Positions 9,901 through 64,000 of a DNA stretch of 64,000 nucleotides are shown here, in pieces. Below the pieces are notes generated by a model, which saw only the letters and a program-made list of their open reading frames with translations, had not been told where the DNA came from and did no database searches. A program made the translations under genes and the position numbers. The DNA comes from Ascidia mentula (taxonomy: Eukaryota > Chordata > Ascidiacea > Phlebobranchia > Ascidiidae): assembly GCA_947561715.1 (NCBI GenBank), contig OX387203.1:7626001-7690000 (forward strand), read 5' to 3'. The first letter of the stretch is position 1. Every line of letters starts with the position of its first letter.

Positions 9901-12900
9901 TCACGAATCAAATCATTTTGTTTTTAAAAAAATAATACCATACTAAAAATACTATAGTAGTGATGAATTAAGTTATGAACAAAAGCAATAAAATGACGCA
10001 GTCCTCAATAAAACCACACAGGTTATCGAGTCAAGCGCCCATTCACGAACCGATGAAAAGTTGACCATAGACACTTGCACAAAAACAATGGCCAAAAATA
10101 GGTTCAGTCGTACTCCTTTTTTATTTCTTACCTAAACGATCTAAATCTTAAGAAAATCACCACGTTCCCCAGATCAAGGTAGCATTGTTGCACTACATGC
10201 TCGAACTCACTTCTATGATGGAAATGAAGGAGATTACAAACACTAGTGACACCAGACTCGCCGTTTCCAGAATTATCACGTGGACGACGGAACCAAAGAG
10301 CCACGACGTCCGCAAGGTACGTCATAAGATTAAAGCGCGGTAGCTGAAGAGCCAGTACTAAGGGCTGCCACCATGTCACAAGTGTATGAACATGCACCGC
10401 ACCAAACGAAAAAAACATGTTTAGCATTTGCGTACTCACATTTTAAAAAAAATACATGCAACAGTATATGAGCAAAAAAAGCCATATTAATATTGGCAAG
10501 CTACAGACAGGGTGTGTACACGGTGTGCCTGCTAGTGTAAAAGCAAGCACAGTGCCACTGCAACAGCTGCACTGATGAGACCTCACAGGTCGAAGCAGTG
10601 CGTGTACACACCCTGTCTGCAGCTTGCCAACATGCAACAGTTTTTGAACAATTTAAACAGCATTGTGCGGTGCTTTTATACTGTGCATATGTTTGCCTTG
10701 GCGTAAGTTTTTGCATTTTGGGGCATTTATATGCAATGTGTGCCTGCTAGTGTAAACGCTAGCGCAGTTCCACAGTCAACAACTACACTGACGAGACCTC
10801 ACAGGTCGAAACAGTGTGTACACCCTTTTCCGCAGCACTAAATAATCATATGTAATCACTTTAACTTCAGGTCGCCGAAGCTCTCGTGATCGCTCTGTTC
10901 GATTTAAATGCTTCTGTCTTCACAATGATGATACGAGTCTTGCCAAAAACCTTCCAAGATGGAGCAATGAAGGTCCTTCACCAACACATGAAACTCAACG
11001 GCGACACTAACGTACGTTTTCACGGTTTTCCCAGCATACTTTAAACTTGTTACAGAAACTTCGCCACTGTTTTGGGAACTCAGTTCGCGGAGCTTAAAGG
11101 ACCGATTTAAAATAAACTGAATCCATGTTTGTGCGAGTTGATAGGACATTGTACCTCCTGCAGTGCATTGCTGGATACATATTTCAAATGTGTATTTCTA
11201 AGTCACTACACTTATGGGATAGAAATGATCCTAGGCGTAGAAAAAAGTTATAGTATTTAATTGACTTGTGGCGAGTGTACATGGAGTAGTTTTTTCTTAT
11301 GTACAACGTGGTCCATCAAATTTACACTCATTGCAGAGTTAATGTCTTTGTATCTATATACAATGCCAGGTAGTGTCTAAATAGACAAAACTTATTACCT
11401 TGGACAAAGTCTTTCTGTAACAATACCACTGTACCACGTACATCTATTACACAATCGTAACTTGCCGACTTTTGGCTACTTTAACAGACCACGCAGACGG
11501 ACAGCGGGGGAGGTCACGTGATTGGAAGGGCGGCAGTTTCACCGACTCGAAAAGTCGTTTCTCCTCGTGGAAGTGTGGGAACAATCGACCTCATGTCCCC
11601 CAGGTAAGCAAACTTCCTACTTACTGCATGGTTTACATGCTATGGTGCATTGTGAAATGCAGAACTTTAACGCAAAATGTTGTAGAAAGCTTATACAAGA
11701 CCGTGGACGTGTATTCTCCATTCCTAATCACACCTCAATTACTGATATGTTGGTCTAAACCACTCGATATTAAAACTTATTTTCGCGCCCACACAGTAAC
11801 ACTCAGGACCTGTAGCCCCCAAGCAAGGTGGCCCATAGTGCCCGTGTGTCTACCGTTGAATAACTCTGGTTTTATTTGAAACTCGCATTAGTTTTGTTGG
11901 ATGTTTCAATAAAACCTGGCGCGTTTGAACAATTATCACACAAACGAGCAGAATTATTTAATTATTAAATCACATCACTGCCAGCTCTAAATGCCTATGG
12001 CAAGCTGAAGCCAAACAATGTTTTAACTTTCTGTGACCTGCAGACGACCTGCAGACAGATGGCCACTGTTTCGATCTATATGGTTTCATCAGTGCAGAAA
12101 GGTGCGACTCTTGTCTGCAGGCGATAAGGCAAAGACTCCACTTAATGCATTAACCGCATTTTACACAATGGCCATTATTTACGGCGAAAAACAATTTGAA
12201 ACACTGCACTACGTCATTGCGTGAATATTCACAAGGCCCCAAACAACTCTTGTGTTTTCAGAGCCAGCATTGGTTCAGAGAATATGAATCGTGATGAAAT
12301 AACCGAGAACTTCAGGGACATAACGGCCAGTATACAGAAACTGCGACTTGACAGTAGCGCGGACCTCGTTGATACTCTGGCTATGAAGGTACGTTGACAG
12401 TATGCTGTAGATACAGCATTTGGTCCTAGATGCGCCGTCTTATCGCATTTCTGTGCGCAGCATAACCAGATTCCTTCTCCAACAAAACCCGGAATCGGAG
12501 GTTCCCCCGTGTTCCCGCCGCCACTGAAGCAGTTGCAAAACGCACCCCAGGTAAAAAATCAATCAGTAACGCAGCAGTTGATTGCTTCGCGAGAATGAGC
12601 CTGTTTTTATGCATAATCATCATAACATTGGCAATTTTGGCTACGCAAATTCTTCAGAACTTGTAAAAACTGTTGGATTTGTGGAACGTATTAGAGGGCA
12701 AGCACTATACCTACTGAATAGCTGTTCCTAATCTACATACACCAGGCGCACAATTAAATAGGTTATACGGAGTAACGCTGTATAGAAAGCATGATGTTGT
12801 CATAAATTCAACTTGCCAAACCTCATTGTCAAGGCCAATAGCATGCACACATCTCATTAGATGATACATGAACTTGACACTTTGTGTGAAGGTAACGCCG

Positions 12901-16826: not shown

Positions 16827-17695
16827 TGGAGAATGACGAGTTCGTGTTGGTTGGGTAACAATCAATTGGGCTTTTAACTAAGGGCAGCACCGACATTTGG
16901 GCTTGATCAATGCTGCGCTGCAAGTAAGCGCTTATGGACATATCACATAGCCTGGGCATTTAACAAGTCAGTAACTATTTTAACACAACCGACTTCGAAA
17001 AAAAATATTCAAAACAACGGAACTATCACGGTTGCGCAGAGTATCGAAAATACGGTTTGACCGTTAAGTTTTGATTGCTGACAAACGGCCCCCAGGGACT
17101 GTTGAACACTTCCAATAGTTTTTCCCACTCGAAGCCCAGTCTCAAGTAAAGTGTAGCGCAAACATACGAACCCTTACAACACACCGCCACGCAACCGCCG
17201 TTGCCTGGAAACGAACGGTTGTATTAACTCCAAAGCAAGGCGAATTCCGCCGTTGCTTAAGTGACAGCTTCAGCCACTCCACGGTTCTCGTAAATGCTGG
17301 AGGTTGTCACGCTTAAACCATTCCAAGAGCTTTTGTCCCAACATGTTGCTTAGTTTCGAAAGTCTGAAGTAATATCAAGTATAAGAAAAAGCGTGTAAAT
17401 TAACTCAATCCCGAGTCTTCAGTGAAGACTGAGGTGAAGGATGGGGACTGCGTTGGGCCTCTGGATTGACCAGTGATATGCAGAAGGTAACATATATGTT
17501 ATGTATATTGAAATAAGTGCGACTTCAATTAGGATAAGCATTAAAGATGTACTTTTGCTTGTAAAGCAATTGCTAATTAAAAAAATACATGTGTGAACAA
17601 TAGAGCCGATATATTTAGTTCAGTTTGTTATAGCTACCACTAAGTGGAAGTTTCATTTGACTTTTTAGCTGGCAAGATCATCATACAGTCACCAA

Positions 17696-17740
17696 AGCTG
17701 CACTGATGAGACCTTCTATAGGTCGAAAGCGTGCAACTCA
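17696..17740 (+). ncRNA. Truncated hammerhead copy
   Basis: AGCUGCA, CUGAUGA, GACC, a 7-nt loop, GGUC and GAA are present, but stem III and the 3' strand of stem I are replaced by unrelated sequence, so it should not cleave. The upstream flank (GGCAAGATCATCATACAGTC) matches the flanks of the copies at 32888 and 23255, which defines a subfamily. Confidence 0.5.
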
Positions 17741-18739: not shown

Positions 18740-18799
18740 AGCTGCAGACAGGGTGTATACACGTACTGTTTCGACCTGTAAGGTCTCATCAGTGCAGCT
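18740..18799 (-). ncRNA. Type I hammerhead ribozyme (consensus, predicted active)
   Basis: On the minus strand, stem I is AGCUGCA (18799-18793) with UGCAGCU (18746-18740), a perfect 7-bp helix. The core CUGAUGA is at 18792-18786. Stem II is GACC/GGUC with loop UUACA. GAA is at 18772-18770. Stem III is ACAG/CUGU with an inner GUGU/ACAC. C17 is 18747, so cleavage falls between 18747 and 18746. Every conserved core base is present. It is on the GnRH gene's strand, about 670 bp beyond that gene's poly(A) signal. Confidence 0.85.
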
Positions 18800-19752: not shown

Positions 19753-20661
19753 TCAATGCTGGATCTCGGATTCACTCTCGGCTTTTTCTATTGGCTCTCT
19801 GCTTGTCGGCTTCGGTTGTTCTATACGGAAAACTGCTTCTCTCATTCCACCGTCGCGTTTAATGCGGTGCCCGCTCTCGTCAAAGTCGCTCAGATCGACG
19901 CTGCGTTTGCCGCCAGGAGATAACCCAGTACTCCAATGCTGCCTTTTCTGTATTGTGTGCTGCTCGCTGTTTTGTGGTTTTTCAACCTCTGCGTGATTTT
20001 CCATCTCGCTCTGTTGCATCCGCTTGCCGCCAGGCCTGTAATGAAAGCTCCAATGTTGTCTGGACAGTGGGGAGCCTTCCCATTCCACGTCACTCTTGTC
20101 ATTACCATTTGGTACGTCATGTTTAAGAAGACTTTGTAATTCCTGGATGAAGAGTGCCGGATCAATGTCCACCCCGTTGACATTGACTTTTGCGTCCTTC
20201 TTGCCTCCAGGGCGCCAAAAATTGCTCCAGTGTTGGCGACCGGAATCTCGAAACACCATCGGCATGTCGTCTTGGTCCCTTCGGAACACCATTGGAACAT
20301 CGGCCGCTATCGCGTTGTTGCGCTTTCCTCCGGGTCTATACCGATCACTCCAGTGCTGACGAGTAGCTACGCGATTTTTCTCGTTCCATGCGCGGCTGTC
20401 ATCATTTTCTTGTCTCATCCAAGCACCCCAGAAATCTTCTTCCTCTTCTTGGTCTTCAGTGGTTTGTTCGGGCCAAAGTTTTGCCATTTCCTCTTCGTAA
20501 CGCTCCATGGCGCTTTTCTCGACCGCAGTGTTTTGCAGTTTAATTAATTGACGTAGAATTTCACGCTCGTCGAAACCGGGTTCGTTGACGTGAGCTGGAA
20601 AACTGGTTGCCGCCGCTAAACAGTACGCGACAATAGTGCAAGCAACAAAACCAGAATGCAT
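19753..20661 (-). CDS. Tunicate-type GnRH precursor with four decapeptides
   Basis: The 302-residue prepropeptide is encoded in one uninterrupted exon. I chose the ATG at 20661 because it opens a signal peptide (MHSGFVACTIVAYCLAAA); the frame runs 33 nt further up but without an ATG. A possible 3' splice site (CTACAG) lies 7 nt before the ATG. Four decapeptides are each followed by Gly and a dibasic site: QHWSDRYRPG (residues 102-111), QHWSNFWRPG (143-152), QHWSFHYRPG (202-211) and QHWSTGLSPG (241-250). The family's processing predicts pyroglutamate at the start and a C-terminal amide. The first three are preceded by a single Arg, the fourth by Lys-Arg. GnRH peptides control reproduction through G-protein-coupled receptors; ascidian precursors typically hold several variants. 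Acidic spacers (TTEDQEEEEDF) separate the peptides. I do not recall these four sequences from described species. Confidence 0.95.
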   Translation of the reverse strand: MHSGFVACTIVAYCLAAATSFPAHVNEPGFDEREILRQLIKLQNTAVEKSAMERYEEEMAKLWPEQTTEDQEEEEDFWGAWMRQENDDSRAWNEKNRVATRQHWSDRYRPGGKRNNAIAADVPMVFRRDQDDMPMVFRDSGRQHWSNFWRPGGKKDAKVNVNGVDIDPALFIQELQSLLKHDVPNGNDKSDVEWEGSPLSRQHWSFHYRPGGKRMQQSEMENHAEVEKPQNSEQHTIQKRQHWSTGLSPGGKRSVDLSDFDESGHRIKRDGGMREAVFRIEQPKPTSREPIEKAESESEIQH

Positions 20662-20699
20662 GATTATTCTGTAGGTCAAGTTCAATTTCGCCACTTACA

Positions 20700-23600
20700 G
20701 TTGTAAAAATCTGCAAACGAAAACGTATTTGATTTAACAGAAAAATTTCGTCGAAGAACAAAACCGATCGAAAAATTTGTGAATAAAGAAACGATGACTT
20801 TTGTTGTGACAATATTGGCAGATTTTTTTAATAAAAACAGTATGAATAAACGCTTTATCGCGACATTTTCGTATTGACGTTCGTTCATGTATAACTATTT
20901 TAACCAATAAACACACAAACTTTGTTGAACTAACTATCTGTGAAAACCCATCGTGCTGAACATAAATGTAAAGAAATCTTTAATTGTTATTTTGTTTAAA
21001 CTTACGATGCAAAAAACAGGAACTGGTTACCCATATGACAAGCCTTAATCTCAAAAACTGCCCTTCAAATTACATTATGACACCCAAAATCGCTGGACGC
21101 TGCCAAGCATATTACAATACAAAAACGCTCAATAAAATAAGATATTATTTCCAAATCGATGTCTCGGTTGCTATGTAACAGCCTTCATCGGGATGTACTC
21201 GTTTGCAGATACGTCCTAATGAAGGCATCTTCAACAGATGTTATCTTCAAAAAGCAACATAGGTTTTGTTCCGCCAGTCCGATCGCGATCATCGACAACT
21301 GGTAATGCTCCTTTCCCCGCTATTGTCCTGCTTATATAAGCTCAGAGCTCAAGCCGTTGAGCGATGGCTGCTGCCTCCCATAATTCGATTGCTGTATCCA
21401 ATGTGCCTTCGTTTTTCGGGTGCACCGCGCTTCGTAATTGGAGTTTTTGACTGACGCAAGGTATTACGCACATCCGTAGGGAGCAGGTCTCATCTCAAAC
21501 CCAGAGAAACAATGAACACATGGTATTGATATCAGAGGATTTGCCAAAATTGCCAAGTGTTTTTTTTTGTTATTTTCCAGTTGTCTCTCGATCAAAATAT
21601 TCTGCTGTTTTTTTTTCGAATCAACAACGGTGCAAAGTTTGTTTTTTGGAAATATTAGCCCTAAACATGCCGTTAAAACGCTTTGTCACTTATACCGACC
21701 ATGACACATAAATGTCATAAAAAAGTTTTAGGTCTTAACGAAACTGTACAGATTTATACAAAAGATTTATACGAAACTTTAAACATTCATAAGATGGATT
21801 TATACACAAAATCTTTATACCTTCCCCTGGCAAACAAAGAATTAATTTGTTTATAACCTGTATCATGTTTCGTAATTTCTTTTTTGCATCAACGAATTTA
21901 CAGACAAAATTGGGTCCAAACCGATATATGAACTTTCGTCTAGAGCCAATGCATTTGGATCTACGCCTATTTTTCTACACAAGGGAATGCAACGACAAGC
22001 GAAAAGCTTGTGGTAAATTAACAGGGATCACTGTGGCGTGGTGCAATGATTTTGCTTGTTTGTTTTATGTCGAGCACACGATGTGTTGAAGCACATTTGA
22101 TGGAAAAAACGTCAAATTAGTGTGTTTTTTTACTGTTAAAGCGCCTTATGCTGTTCTGTTGGTCGTCTTGTAATTTGTTTAGAACTGATTTGCGAGTTTT
22201 GAATAGATTATGACCCCCACACCCTTTAGATGTCGACACCAATTTAAATTAATTGGCGTCCAGGGTCATGACGTACTTTGAAACTGTGACGTAATCACAT
22301 CACACCCATCGGGGTTATTAGGAACTCTGGTACAAGTGTTAAAACTAATAATTGCTTTGACTGTAATTCTTTATATTGCAAGCGAACGAAAGCAAACAAG
22401 TAGTGTATTTTACTTATACAAGGGTCTTTTTGTACCTACATGGAAACATAATGTTGAAGTACTTTCCTATATTATCCCACATGGTAAAGTCAAGGGAAAA
22501 TTCAAAGTCAGCGGTCAAACTTTGCGACCGCCAAAGATTTGCTACAAGATATTTACAAACAGTATGTCTTTTACCATCAAAATTCAAACCGGGATTGAAA
22601 CCGCAATATAACGCAATTTTAATAATTATCAACTTCTACGGGAGGTTTGGTCTTTCACGGTGGAACACAACATTTGATTATTGCTGTGAAAACCTCATGA
22701 ATTGCTGGGTCACAACTCTTGTACGGTCTCTCCGCATGGTATGCGAAACGTAGGTAGAATTCATCATATACAATCTACGGTATCATTTTGTGCCAGAAGG
22801 TCATTAAAGATTGTATATAATGATATTTAATCCTGCCTGGTAATGAATTGCCAGTCATGCCATTGCATGAACATTATTGCGTTGTCCAACATTGTTTAAT
22901 GTGACTTTATTTAACAGCAGGTGCTTGCCCCTGTCATCGGAATATTGTGCTGTAAGCGAGGACGGTAAGAACTACCTTTCCAAAAAAATGTTGACAGGAA
23001 ATATCGTTGCTCCTTCCCCCATGGGAAAAGGTATTGATCCGGATCCAAACCGTATGAGTTGGATTGTCGTCAGAGTAGTCACTAATTGCGTTTCTCTGCG
23101 ACCCTTATGTTTTAGCGCTTATGCGCGAGTGGTGATGGTCATTGAGGTGATTCATTGTTTTTTCTCCAAATTTCGCATCCCATCCTTGTCCGACTACCTT
23201 TCACTAACTTGTTATTTTAAAGAGCATTATCTCATATATCATATATCATTCTTGAGCTGTATGCAGATGATCACTGTTTCGACCTATGAGCCCTCTTTAG
23301 TGCAGCTTGGTATGACTATTTTGACGATCTTGCCGGCCAAACGTCCAGACTCACAATTTATAATATTGACTCAATGTTTATTTTATTTTATTTATGATAA
23401 TCATTGTGTGGCCATTTTATTGCTTGCATGCAAACAACCTCCCAGTGCGACTGGCTGCTGCGAATCTACGACAGACTGTGATTCTCCGTGAGGAAATCAC
23501 CTTTACATGGGCGCCTGACTCGATAACTTTATGGTTTTATCGGTGCCCATGCCATTTTATTTCTTTGTATATTGTTCTTACGCGTGGTTGCATTTTTTGC

Positions 23601-26166: not shown

Positions 26167-35003
<8,837 letters not shown>

Positions 35004-38605: not shown

Positions 38606-38640
38606 CTGATGAAGGTCTGTTGGATAACGACCGAAACGTC
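38606..38640 (+). ncRNA. Minimal hammerhead motif of the Penelope-element type
   Basis: CUGAUGA (38606-38612) is followed by GGUC, an 11-nt loop, GACC, then GAAACGUC. Stem III would be the self-complementary ACGU, too short to fold alone, as in hammerheads of Penelope-like retroelements that are thought to work as dimers. Stem I pairing is weak here. No reverse transcriptase remains nearby. Confidence 0.45.
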
Positions 38641-38875
38641 GAACAAACAAGTGTTTCTTTTTGCCAGAAGAACTTTTAATTACTAAGTAGTATGCCTGGC
38701 AGCATCAGCAACAAACCAAATAATGTACTTGCGTCGTGTTCAATCAAACGGCTACTTCACAGGAAATCATTTCATGTGTTGTATTTCTATTGAAGTAGTG
38801 AACCAAACGGGTGAATATCGGAAGCATCGTAACCATTATATTTTAGCAAAGTGGAGCCAATAATATGAATTGTGT

Positions 38876-39096
38876 CCAAACGGCCAAGCAAAGACTTCCA
38901 CTTTGTGGTGACTATACAATCACCGTCATCCGTTGGGCATCAAACTAGGTTCAACCTTACGGAGAAAACAAGGTGGAAACACTATGGCCAAGCAATGCTT
39001 AACCAATAGTTTGGTCTGCGAAGTCGTCTGATAGTCACACCAGCTGCACTGATGAGACCTTATAGGTCGAAACAGTGGCCATTTGTATGCAGCTTA
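38876..39096 (+). mobile_element. MITE-like element, right terminal repeat with hammerhead (left end lost)
   Basis: The body (38878-39010) is nearly identical to 53159-53293 in the ORC1 intron. To its right TTTGGTCTGCGAAGTCGTCT and a GTCACACC tail lead into a hammerhead. The other copy carries the inverted version of this tail and hammerhead on its left side. Together they define an element of about 300 bp whose ter­minal inverted repeats (about 85 bp) each contain a ribozyme. There is no open reading frame. Confidence 0.75.
39042..39094 (+). ncRNA. Type I hammerhead ribozyme (consensus, predicted active)
   Basis: Stem I is AGCUGCA (39042-39048) with UGCAGCU (39088-39094). The core is CUGAUGA (39049-39055). 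Stem II is GACC/GGUC with loop UUAUA. GAA is at 39069-39071. Stem III is ACAG/UUGU with loop UGGCCAU, and H17 is A39087. Cleavage is predicted between 39087 and 39088. Stem III has one G-U pair and H17 is A rather than C; both are tolerated in known hammerheads. Confidence 0.82.
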
Positions 39097-40484
39097 TACA
39101 ATTCATATTTTAGTTTAAATGGAAAACAAGCCACGGGAACCAAATTTGAGATGCAGTCTAGAAACCACTTTAAACCACATTTGACAAAAACTCTGCACAC
39201 ACCCATGTGCTATATGACTGTCATGAAATTGTACTTATTGGTTGTACTGCCCAACCAATAACCGTCCTACATCAAACAAACGTAGACAAGGTCTGCCGTT
39301 ATGAAATATCGGACAATGGCCCTCAGCAAAAGCTTCACACACATATAAATATTATACCTTGTCAGCAAAAAGGGCGTTTTTGGAACACACCCGTCATCTA
39401 CATTATGACCCTTTTGTGTCTTGTAATTGGACGTAGTAAAACTCACAGGTTGCCTTGACACTGATGCAAGAATGCAATAAACACCCGTTCTGTATGTTTT
39501 AGCTGGAGGCAGCAACACCTAACCTTACCTGCTGACCTTTCCCTGGTCTTTCAAGGTTTGAAGGATGCGGAAAATTGCAAGTTCATCAAAGATAAAAATG
39601 TTATTTTTTTAACGCTAATTTGGGCGTAATTAATGTGTCACTTGGGTGTTTTAGTGGTTTTAGCGAAAGCTGTCTGACTTTTTTTGCTCATAACGGCACA
39701 GTTAAATGCAAACTATATAATAAAGTCTCTGGTGAGATTTTACGCCGAAACGATTTCATTTAAAAACTGGTAGGAACGTAAAACCTTAAAAGTAAACTTT
39801 TATTTGTCAATCAAATAGGTGTTATTGGGTTTTTATATTCATACATGCAACTTAGTTCTTACGTAAGAATTTCCGTACAAGTAGTCATAATACGGCTTTG
39901 CGTGAACATATGCTTTAGGGCGCTATTGTGTCGCAAATAACGTCAGTTTCTTAGTGTTGTTGTAAATTAGACCTTCAGACAAGCGGTAACTCAGGCTATT
40001 AGCAAACTACATGGGCTATCTGCAAATCTGCCAAAGAGGCACCGTAAAACGATTTCAGTTCGAGGACGAAGCTAAATGACGCTGACATTTTAAAACTTAC
40101 AGCACGTCTCGCTTTATGACGTCACCACAGGGCCGGCGTGTGAATTTGATCCCCTGTGTAAGGATTAGACCCGATTTCAAGGTCTCGTGCATGTAACAGG
40201 ACGCAAATTCGAGGAAAGGGCCGTGTTTCTAACTGCCTGGCGCTGTGCCCGCGGGTGCTGGCCAACGGGTACCTGGCGCTTAATTGTTTATTTGAAAGGC
40301 GGCTTGACGTCCCGTCTAATTTACTGCGGAGACTAAATCAACACGTTTTTCATGTTGGACAGCCGCCGAATGTCGCTCGGTCGTAACCTTGGGTTAAAAG
40401 CTCGGCGATGGGGGTTTGGCGATGCAGTTTCGTTTTTCATCGGAAATAAGTGACATCAGTACGAATATAGTCTATAGACTCGCA

Positions 40485-52100: not shown

Positions 52101-55100
52101 TCAGGAATAGCAGAAACATGGAGCCTGTCTCGTGCTTGATCAAACACACTGTTCAGTGCCCTGATTGGCGTCTTCCTTGTAGGAATAAAAGGCTTCCGAT
52201 TCTGTAAGGGAATTCACAGAATTTTTTTTCCTTTTTATGAAGAGAAGAGCATTTATAAAAGAGATATATATTTGACATAGAAAGGTGCTCATTTTAATAT
52301 ATTTCTACGTAAACAGAGAATATTCATTCCACTACTACTCTGCAACATAGAGTGTTAGGTGCTAGCAGACAATTTGCTGATAAAAATTAAATGCTGAATT
52401 AAATGTATTCAGAATTAGGAACAGACTCGATACATGTTTGTGGTCAGACTAAGTTCACCAAAAACTATTGTTATTACTCTTGCATGACAAATAAGACAAA
52501 ATAAACTATGAACCTTTGGTGTTTTAATAACAATTGGTGTTACTGCATTCCCTTTTTTGGTAGATCTGTTTATTCTGGGGGTTAAAATTCTTACTCTTCT
52601 CGGGGTTCTTGTATTTTTACCTGAAATAAATTTTGTTTACATTCAAGCTAAATCCCGCAATGTATTGGAACAATTTTTTATATATTTTTTTTTTTTCAAA
52701 AATATTTATTGTTTTTTAAAGTTGTTGGCCTAAAAAAACTTCTTCAGCTATTGTCAGTGTATAGTTATTGTTTCAAGATAGCTGTAAAATTAATATATTG
52801 CAGGCCTTTGCAATGCCTAATTTGTGTTTTGACAAAAAAGCCACCTATGTTTTCTTTTTCTGACTCATCGCTTTCATTTTCGTCACTGCTTGAGTCACTC
52901 GATGAGCTTCCGCTGAAATCCTTGTCCTCATCACTTATATCTTCATTATCACTTGAATCCTCATCCACTTTGTTTTTATCAACAGGCAACAGTTTCCGCC
53001 TTGCTCTGTTCAAAATTGGCCTTTCTTGTTCCCCTGAAACAATATTAAGTTATGAATAGAAATAAAAATTGTGTATAAGCTACAGACAGATGGCCACTGT
53101 TTCGACCTAAAAGGTCTCATCAGTGCAGCTGGTGTGATTACAAGACGACTTTGCTGACCAAACGGCCAAGCAAAGACTTCCACTTTGTGGTGACTATACA
53201 ATCACCGTCATCCGTTGGGCACCAAACTAGGTGCAACCAAAACAGAGAAAACAAGGTGGAGACACTATGGCCAAGCAAAGCTCAACCAATAGTGCCGTCA
53301 GGCCCCGTGTCACAATAATCACAATTCATATTATTGGCTCCACATTGCTTAGAAATAAAAAAGTTTTACATTTAGTTTTGCTATTTCAACCTCAAGTATT
53401 TCCAAACTGTAAAATTTAGTGATACCACAAGAAATCTAAATAAAATAGAATAATATTCCATTTACGACAGGGTGCTTTTTACTCTTTATCCATTACTCAT
53501 GAAAATAACCACTGCCTGTAATCAAATGAAAAAGTTTCATTCTTTTTACACAACTAACCATTCTGTTTATTTCTACAATATAAGTTACTTTTGTCTACCT
53601 AGTTTCTTTACTGATAGCCTAGCAGATCGCCTCTTGTGCTTTGAATCAGCTTTTCCAACAAACAGATCGTCATAATCTGAATCCTCTCCTGCTGTATCGT
53701 CTGGGGTTTCTGTTGTGGCTTCCACTTGCTTTTGTTTGCTGTTTTGTTCTTTATGCAGCTCTGTTAAAGCAAAACTGTTAAAGAATTTATACTGATACAG
53801 AACTGTATAAAATAATCTGCCACAACTTGGCCACTTTTCAAAAGTTTTAAAATCTTTACATACGTACCTGTTATTTTTATGGACAAACGTGAAGATTTCC
53901 GGGGGTCAGATTTTAAATTGATGTCATTTTTTGAAACTTTTTCATCAGCTTTCTCATCCACTAACTTTCTTCTTGCTTTGCTTGGTTTGGTAGTTTCTTA
54001 AAAACAAAGAATGAGAAAATATAATAATACCTTTTTTTAAAGTGTTGGATTAGCACAATGGTCGCCTAACTGCATGTCACCTAGAACCACTGGTTTAGCC
54101 AAAACTGTATTTTTTAGTGAAAAACTGAATATTTGTACTATAATTGACAGTAAAGAAAAGTTCACTTAAATCAGCTTGGAGAATACAACATAGAGTGTGA
54201 TATATATAATTTAAAAAAAGCAGGCAAATTTTTACCTGTTCCAGCAAGTGAAAGTCGAACAGATCTTCGAGCATTGTTTGATTTTTCTGCAGTTTTACTT
54301 AGTCTTGTAATTTCGGAACCAACCGATGACTGATTTTTTGTTTTTGGCTTGGATACAGTCTTGGAAATTTGTTTTTGTTTTGGAATGACGTGCATTGCGT
54401 TTTTGTCAATGCGTAGCGGAGTCACTTTCTTGACATTCTCCTGTGCTTTGAGATTCTTGACTGCGGACTTCACAACAACACTCTAAAAATAGGAAAAAAA
54501 TTTGTTATGGAAACAAATTTTCTTTTTTGAGTTGGGCAGTACCTCCTTCTTTAAGCCAGTTCTTGATTTTCTTACAGAGGATGTGGTGCTGGCTGGAATG
54601 TAAGAAACACATATTTTAAGCTATTGTAAAAATACAGTGGGAATGCATATGCTAAGTATACTAGAGGTGGTGAGGTGTATTCTATTCCATTTTATATGTT
54701 ACAACTAATAAGAGGGTTATTTTTTAAAAATGACAATGAATTGGCTGCAATGCTCATGAACCTAATGTTTTTTTATGATGGTCACTTAAGTAAATTGCAC
54801 TGAATAAATTTCATCTACAAAGCACATGGAACAGGTACCAACCTTTACTGCTGCGAGTGGAAATGGAACTGTCACTGTCATTACCACTGTCCAGTATATC
54901 CAAAGCAGCAACACTCACGCTGACCATTCTCATGCGTGAAGCAGACAGAGGTGAAGTTAGTGTTGTCGTATTAACAATTTCTGGTGTTTTTCTTGACTTT
55001 GTGCTTTGCTCTATACAACAAAATACATTTGCAAAATACATACATTTGAAACGTTAAACAAGTTATATAATTTTGCTTAGACAATTTTAACATAAAGTAT

Positions 55101-63555: not shown

Positions 63556-64000
63556 GTAAGTTGGATACATTTGCTAGATGTTAATGCAGAGAAATATAAC
63601 CAAAAAAAATATGAGTAAAAAATGTGAATAAAATAAATGTGAATTTGTCAGGCCACCAAAAGCTTACATATAGACAAAATAGGAAAAATGGAGGGAAAAA
63701 TAAAGTTTTATAACGTTAAACAACCGTAACCCAAACAGTATCGTTAAATTATTGGGAATTGCTCTTCTGACACTTGAGTTTATAAAATGTTTATTGAAAC
63801 CGACGTTTCGTCTACCATCCGGCGAGACTTCCTCAGGGTAATGTCACACAATAATGCATCAAGCGCATGAACACTAAAAACGCAAGAAAAACGTAAGAAA
63901 AACGTAAGAAAAAGGGGAAATGGATAACATTGGCACTGTTTGTATCGTCACGTGGCCAGGTGTGTAACGGGGCGTAACACTTACAACAATTTGTTGTAAA
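63556..64000 (+). other. Intron of the lipid transfer protein gene, cut by the window end
   Basis: It starts with the GTAAGT donor at 63556. It contains the Penelope-type hammerhead motif (63800-63836) and a short direct repeat of AACGTAAGAA units near 63890-63910. No acceptor or exon is visible before 64000. Confidence 0.6.
63800..63836 (-). ncRNA. Minimal hammerhead motif of the Penelope-element type
   Basis: On the minus strand CUGAGGA (63836-63830; position 7 is free in hammerheads) is followed by GUCU, a long loop, AGAC, then GAAACGUC. Bases ACC before and GGU after can form a short stem I. Stem III would be the self-complementary ACGU. It is antisense to the host gene. Confidence 0.45.

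Follow-up and report, generated by a model that had tools for sequence, protein, structure and literature searches.

The mirror-image, ribozyme-bearing repeat described here is very probably a 285-bp retrozyme whose insertion scar is that of the Penelope-like elements (PLEs) of the same genome, inserted by PLE enzymes that start at either side of the cut DNA and use one RNA circle as their template. Within a single chromosome-scale genome, 44 base-precise retrozyme insertions and 10 PLE insertions displayed the same unusual two-ended scar, and on sequence comparison this scar shared with intact PLEs is the strongest evidence obtained here for PLE machinery. The mover of animal retrozymes was left open between LINEs and PLEs by Cervera and de la Pena in 2020, with PLEs as a strong candidate (PMC7229834).

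Two copies in the window and their hammerhead ribozymes

Two copies lie in the window, i.e. the whole 64-kb stretch of DNA that was analysed. Copy 1 spans 38847-39104 and is flanked by a duplication, so that the bounds of the preliminary description (38876-39096) were too narrow; copy 2 spans 53069-53349, and a body of 139 bp is common to both copies with 92.8% identity. Their parts are as follows, unit positions being counted, here and below, from the ribozyme cleavage site.

38838..38846, copy 1, left target-site duplication, 9 bp, ATATTTTAG
38847..38875, minus strand, copy 1, long-site arm consisting of the outer tail only, without ribozyme, unit about 42 back to 11
38873..39010, minus strand, copy 1, retrozyme body, unit about 215 back to 78 (93.5% to the L046 unit)
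39009..39104, plus strand, copy 1, short-site arm: linker, hammerhead and end
39043..39093, plus strand, copy 1, type I hammerhead, predicted cleavage between 39087 and 39088 (structure scan)
39105..39113, copy 1, right target-site duplication
53057..53068, copy 2, left target-site duplication, 12 bp, TAGAAATAAAAA
53069..53308, minus strand, copy 2, short-site arm, an uninterrupted stretch of end, hammerhead, linker and body on one strand (93.4% over 244 bp)
53079..53129, minus strand, copy 2, type I hammerhead (structure scan)
53320..53349, plus strand, copy 2, long-site arm consisting of the outer tail only
53350..53361, copy 2, right target-site duplication

Each window copy has one ribozyme end, the opposite end being the outer tail piece alone. 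In copy 1 the short end and its ribozyme are on the right, opposite a bare long tail on the left. Its two ends correspond to about unit 20 and 40; this offset is smaller than usual and was counted against PLE enzymes as the movers. Copy 2 mirrors this layout, with ends at about unit 16 and 42. The order initially described, a body followed on the right by a sense hammerhead in copy 1 and the same body preceded on the left by an inverted ribozyme and linker in copy 2, was confirmed at both places. The duplication of copy 1 scores 9, below the cut-off of 10 used in the statistics, which places it outside the set of 44 insertions presented below; copy 2 is outside the 80 loci examined.

Both hammerheads point outward and have an intact core (CUGAUGA...GAAA) with stems I, II and III of 7, 5 and 4 bp. 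The short stem III is formed by ACAG with UUGU or CUGU, and stem I, formed by GCUGCA with UGCAGC or UGUAGC, closes outside, as in the type I order. A strict structural scan of the 64-kb window yielded three hammerheads (copies 1 and 2, and one of another family), and the same scan found none when the window was simulated 100 times with a first-order Markov model. An Rfam search of the window at gathering cut-offs found nothing, and the hammerhead call rests on the structural scan. Covariance scores at background had been named beforehand as an argument against these ribozymes: the Rfam type III model did score them below threshold (25.0 and 18.1 bits versus a gathering value of 48.5), but the structural scan stood far above chance. 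A genome search with the type I model RF00163 gave no matches in the 73 of 27,659 candidates scored, a result of little weight as no control was detected. A consensus hammerhead pattern missed both copies in the window, as it made no room for the one extra base in their loop.

Elsewhere in the window, the third hammerhead, which is intact, has a longer loop III and belongs to another family, was seen at 18765-18798 (minus strand, at 18792), and partial or diverged retrozyme ribozyme regions were seen at 10566-10600, 10783-10816, 12049-12109, 17629-17728, 23255-23347 and 32841-32923. A reading frame at 19753-20694 on the minus strand encodes four QHWS....PGG(K) peptides and is, judged by these peptides, presumably a tunicate-type GnRH-like precursor.

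Retrozyme insertions across the genome

The genome searched comprised 195.8 Mb in 79 contigs. A 36-base ribozyme core had 1093 + 1033 = 2126 matches with up to three mismatches, and the reversed core pattern had none in the same genome at the same mismatch limit. Core places 285 bp apart led to tandem arrays, among them L046, for which a BLAST map gave five complete plus-strand units of 285 or 286 bp between cleavage sites, as well as partial units. One inverted arm precedes these tandem units, array and arm measuring 1,823 bp, and the whole lies within one 12-bp duplication, ATAACACCTAAT. The inverted arm and the tandem units have in common the variant GAACTGTATAG, which the comparison copies lack. 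The unit has 47% G+C, and translation round the 285-bp circle meets a stop after at most 94 aa, too short for a reverse transcriptase (RT); having no frame for RT and GIY-YIG endonuclease, the element is not a PLE. By the anatomy of its sequence, namely a type I ribozyme, tandem copies and long duplications, it is a 285-bp animal (metazoan non-LTR) retrozyme.

Eighty loci were chosen by ribozyme or body similarity: the 30 best matches to the window copy, 30 exact-core places on contig C1 (the first listed, partly in one array) and 20 further C1 places, so that 50 of the 80 came by design from one chromosome-size contig. Once clusters of less than 50 bp, clusters within 60 bp of a locus edge and repeated flanks had been dropped, 76 insertions were left, a few fragments of related families included. 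The orientation of their outer pieces, left then right, was -+ in 38, ++ in 21, -- in 17 and +- in none, and wherever both outer pieces were mirrored the ribozyme ends faced outward. A flanking direct repeat with a score of at least 10 was present in 45 of the 76, versus five of 600 mismatched flank pairs; the 31 insertions without a clear duplication were counted against an insertion by PLE enzymes. Removal of one duplicate locus gave 44 distinct insertions with a clear duplication, 27 mirror-image and 17 single-orientation. Their target duplications were 10-21 bp long, mostly 12-14, and contained 78% A+T versus 62% for the window.

The preliminary description had postulated a parent element with an outward-facing ribozyme in each terminal repeat and had called for copies with both ends and target duplications. 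Such copies exist, a ribozyme region being found at both ends of 16 of the 28 mirror-image insertions with a clear duplication, and the arms do face outward; but arm lengths and junctions differ between copies, which leaves no single parent element with constant terminal repeats. The lack of a ribozyme at one end, which had been regarded as contrary to that layout, is the situation of both window copies, whereas other copies have both. Over the conserved ribozyme end (52 nt), arms within an insertion differed only slightly less from each other (1.3%) than those of separate insertions (2.2%). Two further arrangements were recorded: L042, without a clear duplication, has inner pieces in the order -,+,-, and L024 (C69:14949004) and L025 (C69:14914354), about 35 kb apart, contain one retrozyme insertion with an identical 16-bp duplication, probably through segmental duplication.

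The outer ends recurred at two sites. Each of the 27 mirror-image insertions combined a short end (unit 10-18, the short site) with a long end (unit 41-49, the long site), in disjoint ranges, L018 being an exception with its short end at unit -5. The difference between the two ends had a median of 30 nt and a range of 26-35 nt, with one value of 52 nt. Likewise, the 3' end of each of the 17 single-orientation insertions was at or near one of these sites, 11 at the short (8-15) and six at the long (36-44). Folding around the two sites revealed no significant common stem-loop (z from -0.3 to -1.9).

The inner junctions were scattered across the unit and are not mirror points; an example is L044, in which unit 157 is the last of the left arm and unit 82 the first of the right arm. 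Overlaps of at least 2 nt were seen at 10 of 27 junctions versus 16% for random joins, a count in which BLAST may overstate overlaps. Three insertions (L017, L062 and L080) go round the unit about once, starting and ending at the short site. None of 73 inner ends fell 3 nt or less from the cleavage site, the point at which a linear, cleaved template would run out; since a uniform spread would give only about two of 73 there, this rules out a pile-up and is no proof of circles. Taken together with the arms and arrays that cross the cleavage site and with the three full-lap copies, the absence of inner ends at this position leads us to favour a template that was circular, or at least uncut.

Penelope-like elements and the probable origin of the mirror-image scar

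Domains of the GIY-YIG type, to which the endonuclease of canonical PLEs belongs, had at least 121 matches in the genome (150 of 382 candidates scored). Neighbours within 7 kb of each other were oriented -+ in 17 cases, ++ in five, -- in one and +- in none, i.e. 17 outward versus no inward pairs. Two controls were available: integrase domain neighbours (150 of 548 candidates scored) were -+ in no case, +- in two, ++ in six and -- in one, and a small set of 27 LINE-type endonuclease hits contained no neighbour pairs. PLE ends were read for 11 insertions, nine of the 17 mirrored pairs and the mirrored insertions within L083 and L086. Duplications of 12-16 bp flanked all nine pairs with scores of 12-13, a score of 12 being reached by one of 72 mismatched flank pairs, and in these nine pairs one arm extended 23-40 nt (61 nt in one) beyond the other. 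The PLE of L086 has a 12-bp duplication, GCCTTTATATTA, and a tail of about 33 nt, and no duplication was found for that of L083; a duplication with a one-sided extra tail was therefore present in 10 of the 11 insertions read.

L105 contains an intact PLE frame of 892 aa (RVT_1, 40.5 bits; GIY-YIG, 28.1 bits). A loose hammerhead-core pattern occurred in all 18 PLE end stretches, corresponding to nine insertions. No retrozyme tail sequence common to PLEs was found in the 24 PLE loci compared; the comparison gave two matches and nothing else, one of 18 nt at E 0.25 and one in L082 to the ribozyme region. The L082 match (944-993; 82.7% over 52 nt) is a retrozyme-like ribozyme region near a PLE copy and is probably another retrozyme copy. 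Comparison of the L086 PLE fragment with solved structures gave no match. One PLE array (G000:C67:6134028-6146916) comprises five endonuclease hits, two minus and three plus, with a same-strand spacing of 2,870 bp; it looks recent, its outer arms being 100% identical over 170 bp and its duplication 12 bp long. PLE-like sequences were also seen in the window. At 38606-38704, about 140 bp left of copy 1, a hammerhead motif of PLE type runs into a stretch like a PLE tail, AGTATGCCTGGCAGCA, and resembles the end of the L086 PLE; a second such motif, at 63806-63836 on the minus strand, is one base off that of the same PLE.

Head-to-head PLE arms with a one-sided tail, of 31 bp, have been described as a hallmark of these elements (PMC3846280). 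In vitro, both DNA strands are cleaved and extended by a PLE protein, and its reverse transcription starts at two internal sites which delimit the genomic tail, a one-sided signature presented as unique to PLEs (PMC11167929). No report of this tail signature or of a head-to-head layout for retrozymes was found among the titles and abstract starts of open-licence PMC articles. PLE machinery is proposed as the retrozyme mover because the PLEs of this genome have the same signature, with a similar offset, duplication length and polarity. Tandem retrozyme transcripts would self-cleave and be ligated into 285-nt circles. A PLE protein would bind this RNA and nick the two strands of AT-rich DNA at positions offset by about 12 bp. 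Priming from one of the ends so made would take place at the short site, about unit 14 (TTATACACA), and from its counterpart at the long site, about unit 45. Both cDNAs would follow the circle in one direction, covering anything from a fraction of a lap to several laps, and would be joined where they meet, partly by microhomology. The expected outcome of such two-start priming is a head-to-head copy that resembles an element with terminal inverted repeats. Counted against this proposal, besides the points named above, were the sub-threshold Rfam scores, the lack of a tail sequence in common with the PLE loci and of a significant fold at the two sites, the inner order of L042, the short end of L018, the 61-nt PLE tail, the L083 PLE without duplication, the near-equal likeness of arms within and between insertions, the small LINE control, and the choice of loci by similarity and largely from one contig.

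If this is true, mirror-image ribozyme elements are the scar of PLE priming from both DNA ends on one circle, which gives MITE-like ribozyme elements a structural explanation and predicts that a PLE enzyme, given the retrozyme RNA, starts near units 14 and 45. The tail offset and the tails-outward polarity provide a simple genomic test for other animals. A wider proposition, that animal retrozymes in general are PLE parasites which independently evolved the two-start RT platform of PLEs beside the ribozyme, PLE enzymes priming both cut ends on small ribozyme-made circles, appears to us evenly balanced between true and false.

PLE machinery could also have produced the mirror by self-priming, through fold-back of the cDNA or use of an antisense template. 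This has been proposed for rotifer Penelope from palindromes at inverted junctions (PMC3846280). We consider it improbable here, given that the inner junctions are not mirror points, as in L044, and that the two outer ends, each directly next to the duplication, correspond to different sites of the RNA.

Somewhat less probable again is that a LINE mobilises the element by target-primed reverse transcription, now and then with the twin priming known from inverted L1 copies; a SINE moved in this way would be expected to have a LINE-like 3' tail and a LINE footprint. The truncated copies and the variable, AT-rich duplications of 10-21 bp are like LINE products, and the 15-bp duplications of Nematostella repeats were likened to those of LINEs by Cervera and de la Pena in 2016 (PMC4918200). 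However, both outer ends lie at two recurrent sites with a PLE-like offset, the small LINE-type control set had no neighbour pairs, and the tail signature is the one presented as PLE-unique (PMC11167929).

The preliminary description had favoured a DNA-type MITE. Such a transposon derivative (MITE or foldback element), moved by a transposase and carrying hammerheads by chance in its terminal inverted repeats, would account for the inverted arms at both ends and for the flanking duplications of many copies. This reading is very unlikely, and largely contradicted already by the sequences: arm lengths, junctions and duplication length vary without any fixed terminal inverted repeat, the difference of about 30 nt between ends recurs in 27 of 27 mirror-image insertions, 17 of the 44 clear insertions have a single orientation, and one duplication encloses a tandem array together with an inverted arm. 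The accompanying suspicion that the element moves through RNA is, on the same sequences, well supported. Finally, an ordinary satellite rearranged by recombination, with the hammerhead as a passenger, would explain the tandem 285-bp arrays, but it is the least credible possibility of all, contradicted by the clear target duplications of dispersed copies with recurrent ends.

Comparison with known mobile elements

MITEs are short and have fixed terminal inverted repeats and duplications of fixed length. The present element is likewise short, with inverted ends in many copies and with duplications, but it differs from them by its lack of a fixed terminal repeat or duplication length and by its tandem multi-lap arrays. 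Plant LTR retrozymes are similarly non-autonomous and have a hammerhead-processed circular RNA intermediate, as the present element would have; they differ by a type III ribozyme, LTRs, a primer binding site, 4-bp duplications and a Gypsy-type partner (PMC4918200, PMC7761336).

Metazoan non-LTR retrozymes were described with a type I hammerhead with a weak stem III, a unit of 170-400 nt with less than 50% G+C, tandem copies and duplications of more than 4 bp, alongside PLEs (Cervera and de la Pena 2020, PMC7229834). The class is further characterised by the lack of a coding region, LTR, primer binding site and polypurine tract, and by self-cleavage and circular RNA in vivo. The present element agrees with this description in its type I ribozyme with a 4-bp stem III, its 285-bp unit with 47% G+C, its tandem arrangement and its 10-21-bp duplications, in a genome that also hosts PLEs. 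Its inverted, tails-outward layout and its two-site tail are unlike the retrozymes so described, the word 'inverted' having no occurrence in the main text of that article. Compared with PLEs, the element is without RT or endonuclease, and its short site lies about 14 nt after the ribozyme cleavage site; like the GIY-YIG PLEs that have been reported, it has arms placed head to head, a tail of about 30-40 nt on one side, duplications in AT-rich targets, a hammerhead close to the end and tandem units (PMC3846280, PMC11167929).
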